A stretch of DNA of 34,404 nt from a virus, in the IMG/VR virus record IMGVR_UViG_3300031825_000053, positions 1 through 34,404 of that record; one strand, written 5' to 3'. The stretch's first letter is position 1. Each line of letters begins with the position of its first letter. The notes beneath the pieces are model-generated. The model was not told the origin of the DNA and did no database searches. It saw only the letters and a program-made list of their open reading frames with translations. Of the stretch, positions 11,379-29,789 are shown one piece after another. The position numbers were made by a program, and so were the translations under genes.

Positions 11379-14075
11379 GTGTATGAATCAAATTCCAGAA
11401 CAAGTAGGTATCCTTGGTGGGCTGGTGCCTCGCTGATGTCTAATGTCGTCGAATCTGCGCTCGAGCAGCAGATCAAGGCTGCCAAGCGCCTGAAGGCGAT
11501 CAAGCGGGCTCGCGAGAGCTTGCTGGCCTTCATTCGATTCATCCACCCTGACCCTGAGCACGAAGACGACCCGGACTACTCGACGTATGAGGAGACGCCG
11601 GTCGCGAAGCTGCTCTGCGAGGTCATGGAGAAGGTGGAGCGCGGCGAGCTCCTGCGCGTCTGCGTCAGCATTCCGCCGCAGTTCGGAAAAGAACTCAGCC
11701 ACTCGACGCCTATGCTCACCCCATCCGGATGGACAACGCACGGCTCCTTAAAGCCCGGTGACATGGTGTATGGCGGAAACGGCCTACCTGTTCGCGTGGT
11801 TGCGGTGTCAGAAGATTGCGATTCGACTCACGAGATCGAGTTCGTGGACGGACAGGTCATTCGTTGTCATGCAAATCACGAATGGTTGGTGCATTGCAAT
11901 GATCGGCTTGGAAAGCCGCTTGCGGTAATGGAGACGAAGGAAATGGAGCGCGCCGGAGTGTGGATTGGAGAGCGTGGCAAACGCGGAAGCCGCGCTCGCT
12001 TTAGCGTGGATTGGGTTGCCATCCGCGGTGAAAGCAAGCAACTACCCATTGAACCGTATGCGCTTGGCGCATGGCTTGGTGACGGAACATCGACGTCCCC
12101 GTGTATTTCTTTTGCGGAAGAAGATCGCGCTGTGGCGGAAGCCATTGATGTCACCTATCCGCGCAGTTCGTGCGCCGTCCACAAAACAACCGGTGTTCGT
12201 CGATCATATCATGGCGGAGGATTGCATAAGGCGCTGCGCACCAACGATCTACTGAGCAACAAGCATATTCCAGTTGACTACCTTACGGCCTCCTTTGAGC
12301 AGCGTCGTAAGCTGCTAGCGGGGTTGATGGACACTGATGGGTATATTCATCACCCAACGCAACGCGCTCAATTCAGCACGGTCAGTAGGCGGCTCGCGGA
12401 TGATTTCGCTACGCTCATTGGCACATTTGGAATGCGCGCGACGATATGTGAAGTTGCGCCGTCATTGTCGTCCTCTGGGATACAGGGTAAGCGCCCGGTG
12501 TTTCAGGTGACGTTTTCACCAACCATCGCGATTGACTGCGTGTTGCCACGAAAGGCAACAAGCGGGTTCGTCGTTAAGAATCGTCGCCGCGGGATCGTTT
12601 CGATACGTCGCTGCGATCCAGAGCCCGGTCGCTGTATTCAGGTGGAAAACGACGATGGCATTTATTTGGCCGGGCGCGGATTGGTGCCAACCCATAATTC
12701 CACCATCATATCTCGCGCGTTCCCAGCGTGGTGTGCCGGCCGCGCTCCACACAAACACCTGATGCTCGGCACCTACTCGCAAGACTTCGCTGAAGACTTC
12801 GGCGGCGAGGTGCGCAACATCATGCAGTCCAACGCTTTCCGCCAGGTGTTCCCTCATTTCGGTCTGCGTAAGGGCGAAAAGGCCAAGGACACACTCGTCA
12901 CCACGAAGGGGGGCAAGATCAACTTCCTGGGCCGTGGCGGCGCCGGCACCGGCAAGCCAGCGGACACGTTCATCGTCGACGACCCGATCAAGGACGACCA
13001 GGAGGCTCAGAGCGCGGCGACGCGGAAGACCGTCAAGTCCTGGTTCAGCAAGGTATCGTTCAGCCGAATCCACAAGTTCTCTCCCGTAGTGATCGTCCAC
13101 ACGCGCTGGCACGAGGACGACTTGATCGGCTGGCTCGTGGACCCGTCGCACCCCGAGCACAACCCCGCGATCGCTAAGAAGTGGACCTACATCAACATCC
13201 CTGCGGTGGTCACAGAGCAGAAACTTGCGTCTGCGCTGGGGCTCACGCTCGAGCGCCCAACGGACCCGGACATCATCGCGCAGTTCGGTGACCGGCCGAT
13301 GGCGTCGCTGTGGGAGAACCGGAAGTCGCTCAAGTTCCTCGCGGAGGCATGCCAACTCGACAAGCGCGGCTTCTACGCGCTCTACATGGGGCAGCCGGCA
13401 CCGGAGGACGGCGACTACTTCAAGGCCGCGGACATCGTGGGGTATTCATCCATTTCTGCGTTGCCCAGGAACATCCACGTCTACGGTGCCTCGGACCATG
13501 CGCTGACCACTGACGAAGAGAACGACGCTACGTGCCTGGGGTGCTTCGGCGTCGACGAGAACGACGACATCTGGATTTACCCGGACCTGTTCTGGGAGCG
13601 CGTCGAGACCGACGAGACTTTGGACGCGATGATGGATCGCATGAAGCGGCACAAGCCGATGGTGTGGTGGGCTGAAGACGAGCACATCAACAAGTCGCTC
13701 GGGCCGTTCCGCCGCAAGCGGATGATGGAGGAGAAGGTCTACTGCACCGTGGATGGGATTTCACCAGGCCGCAGGGACTTGAAAGCGAGGGCGCGCTCCA
13801 TCCAAGGCCGCATCCAGATGCGCAAGGTCCACTTCCCGACGTTCGCGCCGTGGTGGCAGGAAGCGAAGAACGAGATGATGAAGTTCCCGAACGCGACGCA
13901 TGACGACTTCGTGTCGTTCCTCGCGTTGATCGGGCTCGGTCTGTCGAAAGAGGTGGCCGCGGCGCCTGAGAAGAAAACTCAGACATATGCAACGGGAACC
14001 TTCGGATGGTTTAAAGCGCGATCTAAGCTGGAAAACAATCAGGCGCGGCTCAAGCTGGTCGCGAGCGGAAAATAA
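11379..14075 (+). CDS. terL: Terminase large subunit interrupted by an intein
   Basis: The packaging ATPase-nuclease, translated as an 898-residue precursor; removal of the intein (residues 105-440) would leave about 562 residues. The Walker A motif PPQFGK/S is split by the intein between Lys and Ser. Walker B is TFIVDDPIKDD (about 530-540), VVIVHTRWHEDDLIGWL is the following conserved motif, and the C-terminal RNase H-like nuclease has acidic residues in YGASDHALTTDEEND and THDDF. The GTG start at 11379 has AAGG five bases upstream; ATG 11436, which overlaps the stop of a 17-codon ORF (ATG 11383), is an alternative giving MSNVVESALEQQ. Without splicing the ATPase site is broken, so packaging should depend on it. 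Confidence 0.85.
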   Translation: MYESNSRTSRYPWWAGASLMSNVVESALEQQIKAAKRLKAIKRARESLLAFIRFIHPDPEHEDDPDYSTYEETPVAKLLCEVMEKVERGELLRVCVSIPPQFGKELSHSTPMLTPSGWTTHGSLKPGDMVYGGNGLPVRVVAVSEDCDSTHEIEFVDGQVIRCHANHEWLVHCNDRLGKPLAVMETKEMERAGVWIGERGKRGSRARFSVDWVAIRGESKQLPIEPYALGAWLGDGTSTSPCISFAEEDRAVAEAIDVTYPRSSCAVHKTTGVRRSYHGGGLHKALRTNDLLSNKHIPVDYLTASFEQRRKLLAGLMDTDGYIHHPTQRAQFSTVSRRLADDFATLIGTFGMRATICEVAPSLSSSGIQGKRPVFQVTFSPTIAIDCVLPRKATSGFVVKNRRRGIVSIRRCDPEPGRCIQVENDDGIYLAGRGLVPTHNSTIISRAFPAWCAGRAPHKHLMLGTYSQDFAEDFGGEVRNIMQSNAFRQVFPHFGLRKGEKAKDTLVTTKGGKINFLGRGGAGTGKPADTFIVDDPIKDDQEAQSAATRKTVKSWFSKVSFSRIHKFSPVVIVHTRWHEDDLIGWLVDPSHPEHNPAIAKKWTYINIPAVVTEQKLASALGLTLERPTDPDIIAQFGDRPMASLWENRKSLKFLAEACQLDKRGFYALYMGQPAPEDGDYFKAADIVGYSSISALPRNIHVYGASDHALTTDEENDATCLGCFGVDENDDIWIYPDLFWERVETDETLDAMMDRMKRHKPMVWWAEDEHINKSLGPFRRKRMMEEKVYCTVDGISPGRRDLKARARSIQGRIQMRKVHFPTFAPWWQEAKNEMMKFPNATHDDFVSFLALIGLGLSKEVAAAPEKKTQTYATGTFGWFKARSKLENNQARLKLVASGK
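11691..12698 (+). mobile_element. Class 3-like intein with LAGLIDADG endonuclease, in Walker A of the terminase
   Basis: A 336-residue in-frame element between FGK and STIIS. Block A is ELSHSTPMLTPSGW, so residue 1 is Glu, not Cys/Ser. Block B is IRCHANHEWLV with His63 and Trp65. LGAWLGDG (125-132) and LLAGLMDTDG (208-217) are the two LAGLIDADG helices of a homing endonuclease. The C-terminal blocks are GRCIQVENDDGIYLAG with Cys315, then GLVPTHN with Thr334 and terminal Asn336; the next residue is Ser. The Trp/Cys/Thr set and the non-nucleophilic first residue define class 3 inteins, which start splicing from the block F Cys. Base composition looks more AT-rich than the flanks, consistent with later arrival. 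Confidence 0.88.
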
Positions 14076-14087
14076 GGGGAGCACACG

Positions 14088-16217
14088 ATGCCATTGGACG
14101 ATACGCAAGAACTCGACGTCGTAACGCAGGGTCCGGCCATCGACGGCTCCAACGCGGGACAATCATCTTATGCGCCCGAAAAGAGGGCGGAGCCGCCGGA
14201 GGAGCGCAAGGCGCTGGTGAAGCGCATCCTCTCCACCATTAAAGAGGACGCGAAGCATTGGGAGTCGAACTTCAAGCAGATGCGCGAGGACCAGAAGTTC
14301 GCGCGCGGCAAGCAGTGGAGGGGGCAGACCGCGGACGACGATCGTTACGTCGCGAACATCACGCAGCGCCACATTCAGCAGCGCGTGTCCTCGCTCTATG
14401 CGAAAAATCCGACCGCCGTTTCCAAGCGCAGGCAGCGCATGGAATACACGATATGGGACGGCGAGCCCGAGTCGCTGGCGCAGGCGCAGCAGATGCTCAC
14501 GATGGCGAGCCAGGTGGCGCAGGATCCGGCGATGGCGGCCGGCGCGGCCATGCAAGACCCCGCTGGCGCGGCGCAGATGATGCAGCAAGCGATGGGCGCG
14601 CAGGAGCTCATGGCCGACATCCAACAGGCGCAGCAGCGTATCAAGATGTATGACCGCATTGGCAAGACGATGGTGTGCCTGTTCCAGTATTACATGGGCG
14701 AGTCGCAGCCGCCGTTCAAGCTGCGCGCGAAGCAGCTGGTGCGCCGCGTGGTCACGTGCGGCGTGGGCTACATCAAGCTCGGCTTCCAGCGCATCAACGC
14801 AGGGCAGGCGAACCCCGACATCAACGCCAAGATCGCGGACTTCACGACGCGGCTGGATGCGATGCGCGCCCTGTCGGAGAAGGTGGCGGAGGGAGAGTTG
14901 GACCACAACGCAGCGGAGGTGGAGGAGTTGCGTCTTGGTCTGACCGACATCCAGAAGAAGGCGGAAGTTATCGTGCGCGAGGGTCTGATATTCGACTTCC
15001 CGAAGGCGACGGCCATCATCCCTGACGCCGGCGTCGAGGAGTTGAAGGGCTGGGTTGGCGCCAAGCACGTGAGCCAGGAATTCCTGTTTGCGCCCGCCGA
15101 AGTGACCGCCATCTATGGTATCACGCTCGAGAAAGGGAGGTATTCAGGGTTCACGAAATCCGGGCGCAAGAAGAATGACGGTGACATGGCGAAGGTGTAT
15201 GAGCACTACGACAAGACGACCGGGCTCATGTACACCGTGTGCGAGGGGTATTGCGACTTCCTCGAGGAACCGCAGTCCCCGCCCATCGAGATAGACCAGT
15301 TCTTCCCGTTCTTTCCGCTGTCGTTCAACGACGTCGAAGACGAAGAGAACCCGTTCCCTCCGTCCGACGTGCAGCTCATCAAGCACCAGCAGCGTGAGAT
15401 CAACCGCGCGCGCGAAGCCCTGCGCCAGCACCGCATAGCGAACGGGCCGAAGTATGCCGCTGGCAAGGGAATGCTCGGGGAGCAGGATAAGACCAATCTG
15501 CAGGCTGGAGTCGACCACGAAGTTATCGAACTCTCTGCGCTGAACGCGGGGCAGAAGCTCGACGAGATCCTGCAGCCCATCAAGATGCACCCCGTCGACC
15601 CGGCGCTCTACGACACCGGCCCGCAAAAGGAGGACGTCCTGCTCGCCGTGGGCTCGCAGGAAGCGAACCTTGGGCCGACCAGTGGCGTGACCGCCACGGA
15701 ATCGTCCATCGCGGAGGGCTCACGCCTGTCTTCCACCGCGTCGTGCATCGATGACGTGGACGACTGCTTTACGCTCCTGTTCCGCGCTGCCGGACAGGTC
15801 ATGCTTACCGAAGTGTCCGCGGAGACGGCCAAAAAGATCGCCGGCCCGGGAGCGGTGTGGCCGGAGATGTCGCGCGAGGAAATCGCGGAGGAGCTTTACC
15901 TGGAGCTCGAGGTCGGGAGCAGTGGGCGGCCGAACAAGGCGCAGGAGATCGTCAACCTAGAGCGCGTTACCCCGCTGCTGATTCAGGTTCCGGGCGTCAC
16001 GCCCAAGTGGATCGCGAAGAAGCTGGTCAGGGCCGTGGACGAGAACATCGACCTGTCAGAGGCGTGGGTGGACGGCATGCCATCGATCACGTCCATGAAC
16101 GCGGTCAAGACGCCGGAGGGCGCCATGGGCATGGACCAAGGCGGCGAGGGCGCGCAGAACGCGCAGCAGGCGCCAGGCAAGGAGGGGAGTCAGGCTCAGT
16201 TCCCGTCTGGAGCGTAG
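14088..16217 (+). CDS. Portal protein
   Basis: A 709-residue portal, the dodecameric ring through which DNA enters and leaves the capsid. The N-terminal region after a disordered 30 residues reads KALVKRILSTIKEDAKHWES, then REDQKFARGKQWRG and YVANITQRHIQQRVSSLYAKNP, as in podoviral portals of about 700 residues. An Ala/Gln/Met-rich insertion lies at about 135-185. The C-terminal half contains PSDVQLIKHQQREINRAREAL and SSIAEGSRLSSTAS, typical of the portal stem and wing. The tail is Gly/Gln-rich. ATG 14088 follows AAGGGGAG. It comes directly after the large terminase, the standard order. Confidence 0.8.
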   Translation: MPLDDTQELDVVTQGPAIDGSNAGQSSYAPEKRAEPPEERKALVKRILSTIKEDAKHWESNFKQMREDQKFARGKQWRGQTADDDRYVANITQRHIQQRVSSLYAKNPTAVSKRRQRMEYTIWDGEPESLAQAQQMLTMASQVAQDPAMAAGAAMQDPAGAAQMMQQAMGAQELMADIQQAQQRIKMYDRIGKTMVCLFQYYMGESQPPFKLRAKQLVRRVVTCGVGYIKLGFQRINAGQANPDINAKIADFTTRLDAMRALSEKVAEGELDHNAAEVEELRLGLTDIQKKAEVIVREGLIFDFPKATAIIPDAGVEELKGWVGAKHVSQEFLFAPAEVTAIYGITLEKGRYSGFTKSGRKKNDGDMAKVYEHYDKTTGLMYTVCEGYCDFLEEPQSPPIEIDQFFPFFPLSFNDVEDEENPFPPSDVQLIKHQQREINRAREALRQHRIANGPKYAAGKGMLGEQDKTNLQAGVDHEVIELSALNAGQKLDEILQPIKMHPVDPALYDTGPQKEDVLLAVGSQEANLGPTSGVTATESSIAEGSRLSSTASCIDDVDDCFTLLFRAAGQVMLTEVSAETAKKIAGPGAVWPEMSREEIAEELYLELEVGSSGRPNKAQEIVNLERVTPLLIQVPGVTPKWIAKKLVRAVDENIDLSEAWVDGMPSITSMNAVKTPEGAMGMDQGGEGAQNAQQAPGKEGSQAQFPSGA

Positions 16218-25031: not shown

Positions 25032-28000
25032 GTGGCCGACAAGACCGAACTGCTACTCGAGGCGGAGCGGCGCGGCATTCTGCCCGCCGACAAGAAGCCA
25101 CTGCTCGACGAGGCCCGCCGGCGCGGCCTGATTCCGGGTGGCGGAGCGTCATCTTCTGCGCCCACACCCGCCCCACAAGAACCCGGCCTCGCAGATCGCT
25201 TCAACATCATGGCGCGCGATGCCTTCGAGCAAAGCGGCCTGGGCACCGTTCTGCGCCGCAACCGTTCAGGACAGGCAGAGTTCGACCAGGTGGGCGACAT
25301 GGACGCTGCGCTGGGCGCGATGTCCCGCGGCGAGCGCGTGCCTCCGCAGAATCCGTATGCGCGCGTCCCGCGCGCCGCGCTCGAGCGCGCCCGAGACCAG
25401 GCGCTTGTCGACGCCGGCCGCCGGCGCGACGAATTCATGCCAGCGGAGACCGCGCGGCGCGCTGAAGTTGAGGCGCTGCCATCCTTTGCGGACGACCCGA
25501 CCCTCCTTGGCAAGGTCCAGAAGGGCGCGGTCAATTTGGGCGCCATGCTTCTCGGTGGCGCTCCGTCCCCTGAGAACTTGGTACCCGTCGGCCGCGGCGC
25601 CACGCTGGGCAGGACGTTCCTTAAAGGCGCGGGCGTCAACGCAGCCATCAACGTCCCAACGGATGTCGTGGCGCAGCAGCAGGACGTTCAACTGGGACTG
25701 CAGGACCAATACGACCCTACCCGCACGGCCATTGCCGCCGCCATAGGCGCCGCCACCGGTGGGGCGGTGAATGTTGTTCCTGACATCGCGCGCGGCGCCG
25801 CCAAGGGCATACGGCGCGTGTTCGAGCCGTCGGCGCAGCAGGTTGACCCGTCGCTGCCGGCGCTGCCGTCGCGCGTGGACACGCCGGACGTGAACACCAT
25901 GTATGTCGATCCCGCCGGGCGGGCCGGGACGGCGCAGGACCGCACGGCCATGGACTTCGGGCCGGACGTAGCCCGAGCCGCCGACACTACCGCCATCGAG
26001 GGGCAGTTTCGGCGCATACAAGATCCCACTGCCGAGCCCGCGCGCACCGCGCTGCCTTACGACGACACGCGCCCGATCCTCGCGGACGGCTCGCGGCCTG
26101 ACCCTGCGGAGTGGGATGCGATACAGGCACGCCAGCAGGAGATGCAGGACACCGGGCTCACGCCGGACGTCCTCGCCGCGCAACGCGCGCGTGATAACCC
26201 GACACCGGACACCGGCGTCCAGATGGAGCCCGATGTTCTGCGTCGCACCGTTGGCGACATACTGGCTGACCGCACGATCGACCCGCGCAAGACGGTGCTG
26301 GAGATCATTCAGGAGGCGACGGGCGTTCGCACCCCACCGGCCGCGAAGGAAACGAAGGCGCGTGCCGCGGACGTCAAGGCCGCCATGGACGAGCCGGTCG
26401 GCATCAAGCAGTCGCCCGACCAACTCGAGGAGCCGCTGACCGCCGCAGAGGCGATGGACCGGCAAGCGCAGGCCCGGCGTGGAGTCACAGACCCGGCGCA
26501 GACGTTGACGCCGGAGCAGATGGGCGAGCCGCCGGCGGTGACGCGCGCGCGGGAGCGGGGGTCTAAAGCTAGTCCGCAAAGCGCGGCTCCCGACGTTCAG
26601 CAGCCTAATGTTGGGCCGAGCGTTCAGGAAAAGCCGGCGTTCACGAAACGTGAACAGGCGCCGGAAACGAACGCACGCCCCGAACCGGAAAGCGATCAGA
26701 CGCGCAGCGAAGCGGCTGCCGCGGAGAATTTTGGTCGCGTGACCGGAGATATAAAAGGCGGCAGCACGAATGACCTGTGGCGCGCATCGCACTACGCCAG
26801 TTCCATTATCACCAATCTACAGAAGAAGGCGCAGCGCGGCGAACCGCACAACGCGGACATGCTGCGTTCGCTGGAGGTTGAGCGCGACGCCATTAAGGCG
26901 GAATGGCTTACTCGTTCAGATCGTTTCTCCAATGGCGATAAACCCCTCAACACAACCTCTGCGCCCGAACCGCGCCAAGGAGTCTCAAATGAAAAACATG
27001 CCCCCGATCAAAGCGTCCGTCAAACAAATGATGTCGGAATCGGCGGAGACGGAAGTCCCGAACGAGGAGTCGGCCAAGACGGAGCTCGCGGAGAACCACA
27101 AGCCCAAGTCGATGAAGGAAGCAATCGGCAAGGCGGTCGGCAAGAAAGTGCCGCCCCCGCCGAAGAAGCGCGCCGCGTCGATGAAGGAGGCGATGGAGGA
27201 GAGCATCAAAAAACCCCAGAAGAAAAAGGGGTAGCGCGGGAGGAGGTGCAAGATGCTGCTGAGCCCGGAGGACGACCCCGCGCTGGCGTGGATGAGCGCG
27301 CACGAGTGGGCGAAGGTGAGGCTGCACGAGTGGCTGCGGAGGGTAATGGTGGATCTTCTGCGAAGGGAGACTCGCCTGACTCGTCGCCGTTCGGCTCGGG
27401 AGAAGCGAAGCTTTACGACTTCGGCGCAGCAATAGGAGAGGGCATCACCAAGGCCGCACGATGGGCGCTTGGCGGCGACTACACTGAGGCGAAGGGCGAC
27501 CTGACCAAGATCGCCGCTGCGGTGAAAACGATGTTCGAGAGCAAGGGCAAGCCCAAGCCGGGCGAGGGCGACCCGCGCAACATCGGCAAACAGCTTTTCG
27601 ACGCCATGTTCGCGTCAGCGCATGGTGACATGATAGGGCTCTACAACAAGTTCAAGGCGCGCGGCGCTGACTCGCCCACGTTCAAGCGCATCCTGGACCA
27701 GACGTTCGCGCGCGCTGGAACCGGAGAAGGAACCGGGCGCACGTTCGACGAGGCGTATGACGCGCGCGTGAAGCGGCAACTGAACAAGGTGGACGATATC
27801 AGCGACGCCATGAAGGCGGCGAACGTCACGGACGAGCAGGTGTGGAGGCAGGTTACGAACCAGGCCGCACGTCAGGGTCAGGTCGGCAAGATCGCAAAGA
27901 TGGTCGAGGACTTCTTCGGTGAGTCGCTGAAGTATCAGCGCGACGCGGGCGCAGATATTGGCGAGAGCAAGAACTACTTCCGCCGCATCGTTGATCGCAA

Positions 28001-29789
28001 CAAGGCGTATGAGCAGCGCGCGAAGTTCGTTGACCAGGCGGCCAAGGTTTATACGGAGGATCAGGGGCTGTCTGCGGTAGACGCCAAGAAGGCGGCTGAA
28101 GCCTACTGGCACCGCGTCGTCTACGGCGTCGAGGGCCGCCCGGGCATGCCCGGCCGCTCCGGCACGGAGAAGTTCGCGCGAGAGCGCGAGTTCGGCCCCG
28201 CCGCAGAGAAGCATCTGGGCGACTTCTACCGCAAAGATATCATCGGCACGCTTGCGGAATACGCTACGCAGTCCGCGCGGCGCGCGGAGATCGCGCGCCT
28301 GTGGGGCGACAACTTCTCCCGCTGGACTGAACTCGAGTCCGCCATGAAAAAAGAGGGCGTGGGCGACGCCTTGCCGCAGCTTCGCGACTACGTGGAGATG
28401 ATCGCCGGCGTGAAGCAGTTCGACGTGAGCAAGATTGAGCGTATCGCCTCATCCTGGTCTCGCACGTGGTTCAGCCTCGGGTCGCTGACGTGGGCAACGA
28501 TGACCTCGCTGCCAGAGCTCGTCATGCCGGTCGTGCGCGCGAACATGGATGTCAAGGTCGCATGGAACGGCTACATCGGCTACCTCAAGGAAGCTCTGAA
28601 GGCTGCGCCCGGGCGTGACGCCAACTACTTCCGGCGCCTCAACGAAGACATCGGACTCGTGGCCGGCGCGCACTATGGCGCTCTGTCGGCGCAGCGGTTC
28701 GGCACGGAGTCCGCGCCCGGGTCGTATCAGTCGCGCGCCATCGAGAAGTTCTTCGCGCGCAACTTGCTCGAGCCTCTGACCAACTTCAACCGCGACCTGT
28801 CGACCGCTATTGCGGAGCCGTTTATCGCCAAGCAGGCGGGGCGCGCGTTCAAGGGCGACAAACTCGCCGCGCGGGAGCTCGCGGACCTCGGGGTAGACGC
28901 CGCTGCGGTGAAGGAATTCTCCACATGGGTGAACGGGATGAAAGGAAAGGCGCCGTCCTTCGCTGACCTTCAGGCAGCGGGCAAGAATGGAGACCTCTAT
29001 ATGCTCGCGCTCCAGCGATTCTCAGATCAATCCGTCATGCGCCCGACGGCCGCCACGAAGGCGAAGGGTGCGAACAACCCGGGCGTGATAGGACTGCTCT
29101 ATCACCTCCAGTCGTTCAATTACGCCTACAGTAAGAACGTGCTGGGGCGCGCGAAGAATCGCGTCATGGGTGAGGACGTGTCCGGCATGGACCGCATGCG
29201 CTATGGCCTGCAAGCTCTGTCGGGCATGGCGATGATAACAGCCCTGCAATATGCTCTGGGTGAGGCGCGCGACTCGAGTGCGGAGGCGCTGACCGGCAAG
29301 AAGAAGGACGTCACCTACACTCCCGCAGCGAAGGTTGAGCGCGCGCTGTCACGCGCCGGCGCGTTCGGCGTGGCCGATCCTTACCTGCAGATGCTATCCG
29401 GGGTGCGCTACCAGCGCCCCATCTCATCCGCCGCGGGCGGCCCGGTCATCGGCACAGGATTCGACATGGCGCAGACCGGTGTGAATATGTGGCTGAACAA
29501 CAGCGAGAACACGAACAGCGCGGAGCGCCGCTTCGCGCGCAACCTCTATCGCTACGGCGTGGAGCCCGGCGTGAACCTCGCGCTGACGAGCCTGCCGATC
29601 AACCCGGCTACCGCACTGGTGACGATGGTCGCGCTGCCCGCGATGCGCGAGTCGTTCGTGGACGACCTGGCTGGAGAGCACGGCCGTCAGAAGCCGCGCG
29701 AGATTCAAGGGTTGAGTGAAGTCATCGCCGGCAAGGCGAAATCCGGTCGTTCCTCCGGGCGTGAATCCGGGCGCTCCTCCGGCAGGTGA
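25032..29789 (+). CDS. Giant internal virion/ejection protein (1585 residues)
   Basis: The largest gene, in the position of T7 gp16-type proteins that are injected and build the periplasmic DNA conduit. It opens with a doubled motif LLLEAERRGILPADKKPLLDEARRRGLIP in two halves (residues about 7-35), common at the N-terminus of large phage ejection proteins. Residues 250-800 are largely disordered and Pro/Gly/Glu/Arg-rich; residues 653-801 are overprinted by two other genes. The remainder is helical, with LYDFGAAIGEGITKAARWALGG (about 790-815) and hydrophobic segments near 1145-1165 (WFSLGSLTWATMTSLPELVM) and 1390-1410 (LQALSGMAMITALQYALG). The C-terminus repeats Ser-Gly-Arg. No lysozyme or transglycosylase motif is evident. 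The start is the GTG at 25032, two bases after the previous stop. Confidence 0.75.
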   Translation: MADKTELLLEAERRGILPADKKPLLDEARRRGLIPGGGASSSAPTPAPQEPGLADRFNIMARDAFEQSGLGTVLRRNRSGQAEFDQVGDMDAALGAMSRGERVPPQNPYARVPRAALERARDQALVDAGRRRDEFMPAETARRAEVEALPSFADDPTLLGKVQKGAVNLGAMLLGGAPSPENLVPVGRGATLGRTFLKGAGVNAAINVPTDVVAQQQDVQLGLQDQYDPTRTAIAAAIGAATGGAVNVVPDIARGAAKGIRRVFEPSAQQVDPSLPALPSRVDTPDVNTMYVDPAGRAGTAQDRTAMDFGPDVARAADTTAIEGQFRRIQDPTAEPARTALPYDDTRPILADGSRPDPAEWDAIQARQQEMQDTGLTPDVLAAQRARDNPTPDTGVQMEPDVLRRTVGDILADRTIDPRKTVLEIIQEATGVRTPPAAKETKARAADVKAAMDEPVGIKQSPDQLEEPLTAAEAMDRQAQARRGVTDPAQTLTPEQMGEPPAVTRARERGSKASPQSAAPDVQQPNVGPSVQEKPAFTKREQAPETNARPEPESDQTRSEAAAAENFGRVTGDIKGGSTNDLWRASHYASSIITNLQKKAQRGEPHNADMLRSLEVERDAIKAEWLTRSDRFSNGDKPLNTTSAPEPRQGVSNEKHAPDQSVRQTNDVGIGGDGSPERGVGQDGARGEPQAQVDEGSNRQGGRQESAAPAEEARRVDEGGDGGEHQKTPEEKGVAREEVQDAAEPGGRPRAGVDERARVGEGEAARVAAEGNGGSSAKGDSPDSSPFGSGEAKLYDFGAAIGEGITKAARWALGGDYTEAKGDLTKIAAAVKTMFESKGKPKPGEGDPRNIGKQLFDAMFASAHGDMIGLYNKFKARGADSPTFKRILDQTFARAGTGEGTGRTFDEAYDARVKRQLNKVDDISDAMKAANVTDEQVWRQVTNQAARQGQVGKIAKMVEDFFGESLKYQRDAGADIGESKNYFRRIVDRNKAYEQRAKFVDQAAKVYTEDQGLSAVDAKKAAEAYWHRVVYGVEGRPGMPGRSGTEKFAREREFGPAAEKHLGDFYRKDIIGTLAEYATQSARRAEIARLWGDNFSRWTELESAMKKEGVGDALPQLRDYVEMIAGVKQFDVSKIERIASSWSRTWFSLGSLTWATMTSLPELVMPVVRANMDVKVAWNGYIGYLKEALKAAPGRDANYFRRLNEDIGLVAGAHYGALSAQRFGTESAPGSYQSRAIEKFFARNLLEPLTNFNRDLSTAIAEPFIAKQAGRAFKGDKLAARELADLGVDAAAVKEFSTWVNGMKGKAPSFADLQAAGKNGDLYMLALQRFSDQSVMRPTAATKAKGANNPGVIGLLYHLQSFNYAYSKNVLGRAKNRVMGEDVSGMDRMRYGLQALSGMAMITALQYALGEARDSSAEALTGKKKDVTYTPAAKVERALSRAGAFGVADPYLQMLSGVRYQRPISSAAGGPVIGTGFDMAQTGVNMWLNNSENTNSAERRFARNLYRYGVEPGVNLALTSLPINPATALVTMVALPAMRESFVDDLAGEHGRQKPREIQGLSEVIAGKAKSGRSSGRESGRSSGR
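26989..27234 (+). CDS. Overprinted Lys-rich gene inside the giant ejection-protein gene (+1 frame)
   Basis: An 81-residue frame entirely inside 25032-29789, shifted +1. AAGGAG (26978-26983) is correctly spaced before ATG 26989. Third codon positions are almost all G or C in this frame, as in true genes here, whereas the host frame over the same bases uses many A-ending codons and gives low-complexity sequence. The protein has PKSMKEAIGKAV (39-50), ASMKEAMEESI (63-73) and SVKQMMSESA (10-19), apparently a thrice-repeated helix, a PPPPKK linker and a KKPQKKKG tail. PKSM-x-EA-x3-AV also occurs in the scaffold protein, so a capsid-assembly or virion role is possible. Function unknown. Confidence 0.7.
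   Translation: MKNMPPIKASVKQMMSESAETEVPNEESAKTELAENHKPKSMKEAIGKAVGKKVPPPPKKRAASMKEAMEESIKKPQKKKG
27253..27435 (+). CDS. Second overprinted gene inside the giant ejection-protein gene (+1 frame)
   Basis: A 60-residue frame in the same +1 frame, 18 bases after the first nested gene. GGAGGAGGTGCAAG before ATG 27253 is one of the strongest ribosome binding sites in the window. The product opens LLSPEDDPALAWMSAHEWAKVRLHEWLRRVMVDLL, a convincing amphipathic helical protein, and then turns Arg-rich with less natural composition. It ends at TAG 27433-27435, where the host frame becomes well conserved-looking. The start is well supported; the last third may be constrained mostly by the host frame. 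Confidence 0.55.
   Translation: MLLSPEDDPALAWMSAHEWAKVRLHEWLRRVMVDLLRRETRLTRRRSAREKRSFTTSAQQ

Follow-up and report, generated by a model that had tools for sequence, protein, structure and literature searches.

What is encoded in the +1 frame of the giant ejection-type gene of this phage? The window, that is, the whole stretch of 34,404 bases analyzed here, is an IMG/VR virus record and belongs to a tailed phage, as judged by its terminase, portal, SU10-type adaptor and capsid genes. Its gene for the large terminase subunit (11379–14075; 898 aa) has a LAGLIDADG_3 match at residues 307–359, probably an intein. The initial annotation had placed two +1 frames of 81 and 60 residues inside a 1585-residue gene, each behind a near-perfect ribosome-binding site. 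These coordinates proved exact and both sites are present, as laid out below.

25032–29789, plus strand: host gene for a 1585-aa giant ejection/polyvalent-type protein; continuous open reading frame with a GTG start, C-terminal homology to relatives.
26977–26982, plus strand: AAGGAG, Shine-Dalgarno of the first candidate nested gene, 6 nt 5' of its ATG.
26989–27234, plus strand: first candidate nested gene, 81 aa, +1 frame, from ATG at 26989 to TAG at 27232–27234; proposed from its codon score and positional counterparts in relatives.
27239–27247, plus strand: GGAGGAGGT, Shine-Dalgarno of the second nested frame, 5 nt 5' of its ATG.
27253–27435, plus strand: possible second nested gene, 60 aa, +1 frame, with ATG at 27253 and a TAG ending at 27435; weak codon score.
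27438–29786, plus strand: conserved C-terminal region of the host protein, beginning immediately downstream of the nested frames; NSENTN.AER and KNVLGR motifs.

We infer the label 'ejection protein' from homology. The C-terminal region of the host is 36% identical to relative L098 and 31% identical to L099, and homologues of its C-terminal 780 aa are single ORFs of 1746–2846 aa. A Pfam search with the window host protein gave no domain match. The homologue L104, however, carries ddrB-ParB (E 2e-25) and LPD1 (E 1e-8) domains; in this, and in being giant single ORFs, these hosts resemble the polyvalent proteins (PMC5512222), whose description mentions neither 'overlap' nor 'alternative frame'. 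The window host is without the ddrB-type N-terminal part, while its C-terminus is homologous to polyvalent-domain hosts such as L104. Host residues 653–802, which lie over the nested frames, are abundant in Gly, Ala, Glu, Arg and Asp.

Open frames are frequent in the window, which is 65% GC, and we dropped open-frame length as evidence for a nested gene because the same host gene contains longer +1 shadow ORFs. Coding potential was instead scored with a model of own-frame versus +1-shadow codon usage, trained on the genes of the window and expressed in nats/codon. The window's real genes score 0.39–0.63 and their +1 shadows −0.30 to −0.53; the longer +1 frames of the host gene, of 202 and 107 aa, are shadow-like at −0.22 and −0.53. 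The 81-codon frame scores +0.503, within the range of real genes. A GC-rich, low-complexity Gly/Gln/Arg linker might merely look coding in the +1 frame, with no nested gene at all, and the linker is indeed of low complexity in DNA where open frames are common. Yet when the host was recoded synonymously 20,000 times with its amino acids kept exactly, no recoding reached the score of the 81-codon frame (null −0.18 ± 0.08 versus +0.50 observed; z 8.9), and the selection signature described below is also found in relatives at 33–49% GC, so that we consider this explanation very unlikely. The third positions of the first frame, described in the initial annotation as nearly all G or C, do have a GC3 of 0.85, compared with 0.38 when those bases are read in the host frame.

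The signal has a sharp left edge. The +1 frame already has 78 open codons ahead of the ATG at 26989, as would be expected if a programmed +1 frameshift added a K-rich tail to a truncated host protein and there were no separate gene. Those 78 codons are shadow-like, however, at −0.28; the score jumps from there to +0.50 at the ATG, where the host frame in turn becomes shadow-like (−0.47/codon over the 81 nested codons, with +0.32 and +0.43 on the adjoining sides), and we conclude that the coding signal sets in at the ATG rather than at a frameshift. In addition, relatives carrying the nested family described below have an in-frame +1 stop about a dozen codons or less before the nested start (directly before it in L107), and every nested start has its own Shine-Dalgarno-like site. 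A frameshift is therefore, of the explanations weighed here, the one we would least expect to be true. The Shine-Dalgarno and start of the first gene are predicted to be unpaired. On its codon usage, the 81-aa frame is very probably a real nested gene.

The predicted 81-aa product is basic (pI 9.8) and probably helical, although the helix prediction is of low confidence and the AlphaFold model (pTM 0.22) is uninformative. None of our homologue searches with it returned a sequence match, and it matched neither the HMM of the nested family in relatives nor the PHROG 2423 profile. As it matches none of these families, it is assigned to a shared slot by its host gene, frame and position, and the case for its reality rests on the codon evidence. 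The 60-codon frame scores +0.13/codon, a value reached by 2 of 20,000 host-synonymous recodings (z 4.0). Its gene-like signal is confined to its first half (30 codons, GC3 1.00), the second half scoring −0.07; its start region, unlike the first, is predicted to be paired, and homologue searches with its product found none. Whether it is a second nested gene we regard as an even bet.

Searches for the host with the window alone found no close kin, and the substitution test was therefore run on the counterparts in distant relatives. An alignment of capsid proteins that included Microcystis phage Mae-Yong1326-1 and Rhizobium phage RHph_N65 led to 80 loci, and a search with a host-domain alignment, which took no account of the nested frame, brought in more marine loci. 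Homologues of the host C-terminus are encoded in 11 of the 32 records searched, nearly all as single giant ORFs. In most of these giant homologues an internal ORF gives the top-scoring +1 stretch; it has an ATG or GTG start and a Shine-Dalgarno-like site and lies in a linker. Unsupervised 40-codon +1 peaks over all genes were noisy, many of the tops being gene ends or wrong antisense ORFs, so we applied a filter for start, Shine-Dalgarno and coding score, with the +2 frame as a control. Ten +1 ORFs qualified per 70,967 codons of giant genes and six per 245,033 codons of other genes, and several of those six resemble badly chosen ORFs; the same filter in the +2 frame gave none in giant genes and one in other genes. 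We saw no convincing nested gene in the giant relatives Mae-Yong1326-1, G009 and ctCJ8213. Relatives that keep the host but not the +1 gene, the case that the initial annotation had named as evidence against a nested gene, are thus few, and the slot is common without being universal.

At about 14 loci (L104, L105, L106, L107, L113, L114, L116, L118, L121, L122, L123, L126, L149 and L168) the +1 products form one homologous family of 48–55 aa with an R.ANK motif, always in one linker of the giant polyvalent/ejection gene, between the ddrB-ParB domain and LPD1. One member lies in a Vibrio hannami prophage and the others in viral records. In that prophage (L149:17000-20929) the polyvalent gene is split into several frames while the nested family gene is intact. 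The family HMM found a member in another record, again nested in +1, and no stand-alone copy in 33 records. The L108 product may be a remote member, having scored 6.8 bits at the right place. AlphaFold models the family as a two-helix hairpin (pLDDT 75, pTM 0.48). With this family the 81-aa frame of the window shares a homologous host gene, the +1 frame and a linker before the conserved C-terminal part; its position matches relative to the host C-terminal region only. A nested gene family appears to be conserved, unannotated, in the giant ejection genes of these phages.

The counterparts in relatives are under selection in both frames. In codon-aligned pairs, differences within the nested gene pile up at host position 1, which is nested position 3, and elsewhere at host position 3. 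Substitutions at host positions 1, 2 and 3 number [20,5,4] in the nested gene versus [75,52,117] in the flank for L113–L114, [8,2,2] versus [4,2,17] for L104–L123, and [9,3,5] versus [20,15,79] for L122–L118. Four disjoint pairs gave one-sided Fisher p values of 0.002, 0.0013, 3.6e-5 and 0.005 (combined, about 2e-9), and in a sliding scan of the whole host gene the extreme fell at the nested place in 5 of the 5 pairs tried. Amino acid identity between L113 and L114 is 0.92 for the nested product, 0.58 for the host over the same bases and 0.80 for the host elsewhere. The proposal of a nested gene that bears much of the constraint is thus supported for the 81-aa frame, by its codon bias and by selection in the relatives, and extends far less clearly to the 60-aa frame.

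The host ORF might in reality be two genes (about 25032–26990 and 27400–29789) that flank ordinary small genes, in which case the host frame would be open there by chance in GC-rich DNA. Host codons over the region are, as noted, shadow-like, and from the window alone the probability of a chance-open host frame, given the 81-aa product, is 0.07. An actual case of such an arrangement is Acinetobacter phage MD-2021a (L155:1809-7606), where an 85-aa gene that is not homologous to the nested family lies between separate ddrB-like and pilot-like genes. In the giant relatives with a nested gene, however, one ORF runs across it even in AT-rich genomes (33–36% GC), and in the marine genomes the probability that the host frame is open by chance, given the nested protein, is 1e-4 to 1.3e-2 each. 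The relatives' host amino acids over the nested gene can still be aligned, and in the marine clade the host motif ..KADG..GQ.SLL/LF is kept at the nested start. We therefore judge the two-gene arrangement improbable. From the substitution shift at nested position 3, and from host frames that stay open against the odds, we conclude that both frames are maintained in the relatives, and the suggestion that the host frame need only be a flexible linker has to be amended, that frame not being free. A conserved host motif like Q..(S)L(L/F) sits right where the nested gene starts in L104, L106, L114 and L108, and also in L100, which is without the nested gene; we take it to resemble a sliding-clamp-binding peptide.

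Other relatives encode other +1 products in the giant gene (L098, L099, L101, L108 and L109). L005, the closest to the window by capsid protein, has a +1 nested gene at 14792–14989 with AAGGAG whose product is a member of phrog_2423 (E 1.4e-14), the sole clear match to that family among the nested products; its host ORF, of 810 aa, cannot be aligned with the window host, and L005 is placed in the slot by gene order and type only. Elsewhere PHROG 2423 proteins have genes of their own in the neighborhood of head and ejection genes, such as O4_21 of Pseudomonas phage O4, or form the N-terminus of a head maturation protease, as in Acinetobacter HZY2308. This suggests that the L005 nested gene was engulfed by the host frame rather than born by overprinting. 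Weak profile matches to phrog_1869 (L101, E 0.008) and phrog_4583 (L114, E 0.02) were not relied on. Most nested products are small basic proteins (pI 9.7–12), that of L101 (pI 5.7) being an exception. Among cultured phages, Pseudoalteromonas phage vB_Pun_Y3 (L157, host codon 1033) and Aeromonas phage phiARM81mr (L158, codons 173 and 1540) have candidate +1 ORFs in giant ddrB-type genes.

Altogether, we think it quite probable that a real nested gene occupies a recurrent +1 slot of the giant gene and encodes a small basic late protein with a putative role. The 81-aa gene, wholly nested at the linker before the conserved C-terminal region, would be translated from the late structural mRNA by ribosomes that use its own Shine-Dalgarno and ATG to initiate, independently of those reading the host frame. 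Its product would be a small basic protein, probably helical; the slot would recur in related phages with unrelated small products inside, and the downstream 60-aa frame may be a second such gene. As to role, our first guess, put forward tentatively, is a head or virion accessory protein co-made with the ejection protein and acting in assembly, packaging or co-injection, because of the late-gene setting and the link to PHROG 2423; an anti-defense protein is a second and distinctly less likely guess. More broadly, it is possible, though at somewhat less than even odds, that many tailed phages share a recurrent, exchangeable +1 slot in their giant ejection/polyvalent genes. Small genes that once stood alone, such as PHROG 2423, would have been taken up there when the host frame was extended or fused, the host now running through them as a linker and different phages hiding different small proteins at one place.

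Out-of-frame nested genes are classical in phages: Rz1 within Rz of lambda, E within D of phiX174 and the lysis gene of MS2, mostly lysis genes. The arrangement described here resembles them in that a gene lies inside or across another in a different frame, with its own ribosome-binding site and both frames selected; it differs in having a giant ejection/polyvalent host and a slot that recurs in divergent phages with changing content. Inspection of the nested products by eye showed no transmembrane or lipobox feature of the lysis type. The L005 product is, as a family member, like other PHROG 2423 proteins, which are separate or protease-fused elsewhere, and the window product lies outside that family. 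IddB of phage P1 is likewise annotated inside a ddrB gene; we rejected it as a precedent since it is antisense; it also lies elsewhere in ddrB and is known from annotation only. We found no report of the nested +1 arrangement in the literature searched, which took in few subscription journals.

Since a similar hidden gene, apparently selected for, persists in related phages, small genes have probably escaped annotation in phage genomes. The nested family offers a clean natural test case for the evolution of overlapping genes, in which one can ask which frame is old and which one bends. It also suggests that the linkers of polyvalent proteins are worth searching for hidden small virion or anti-defense proteins.
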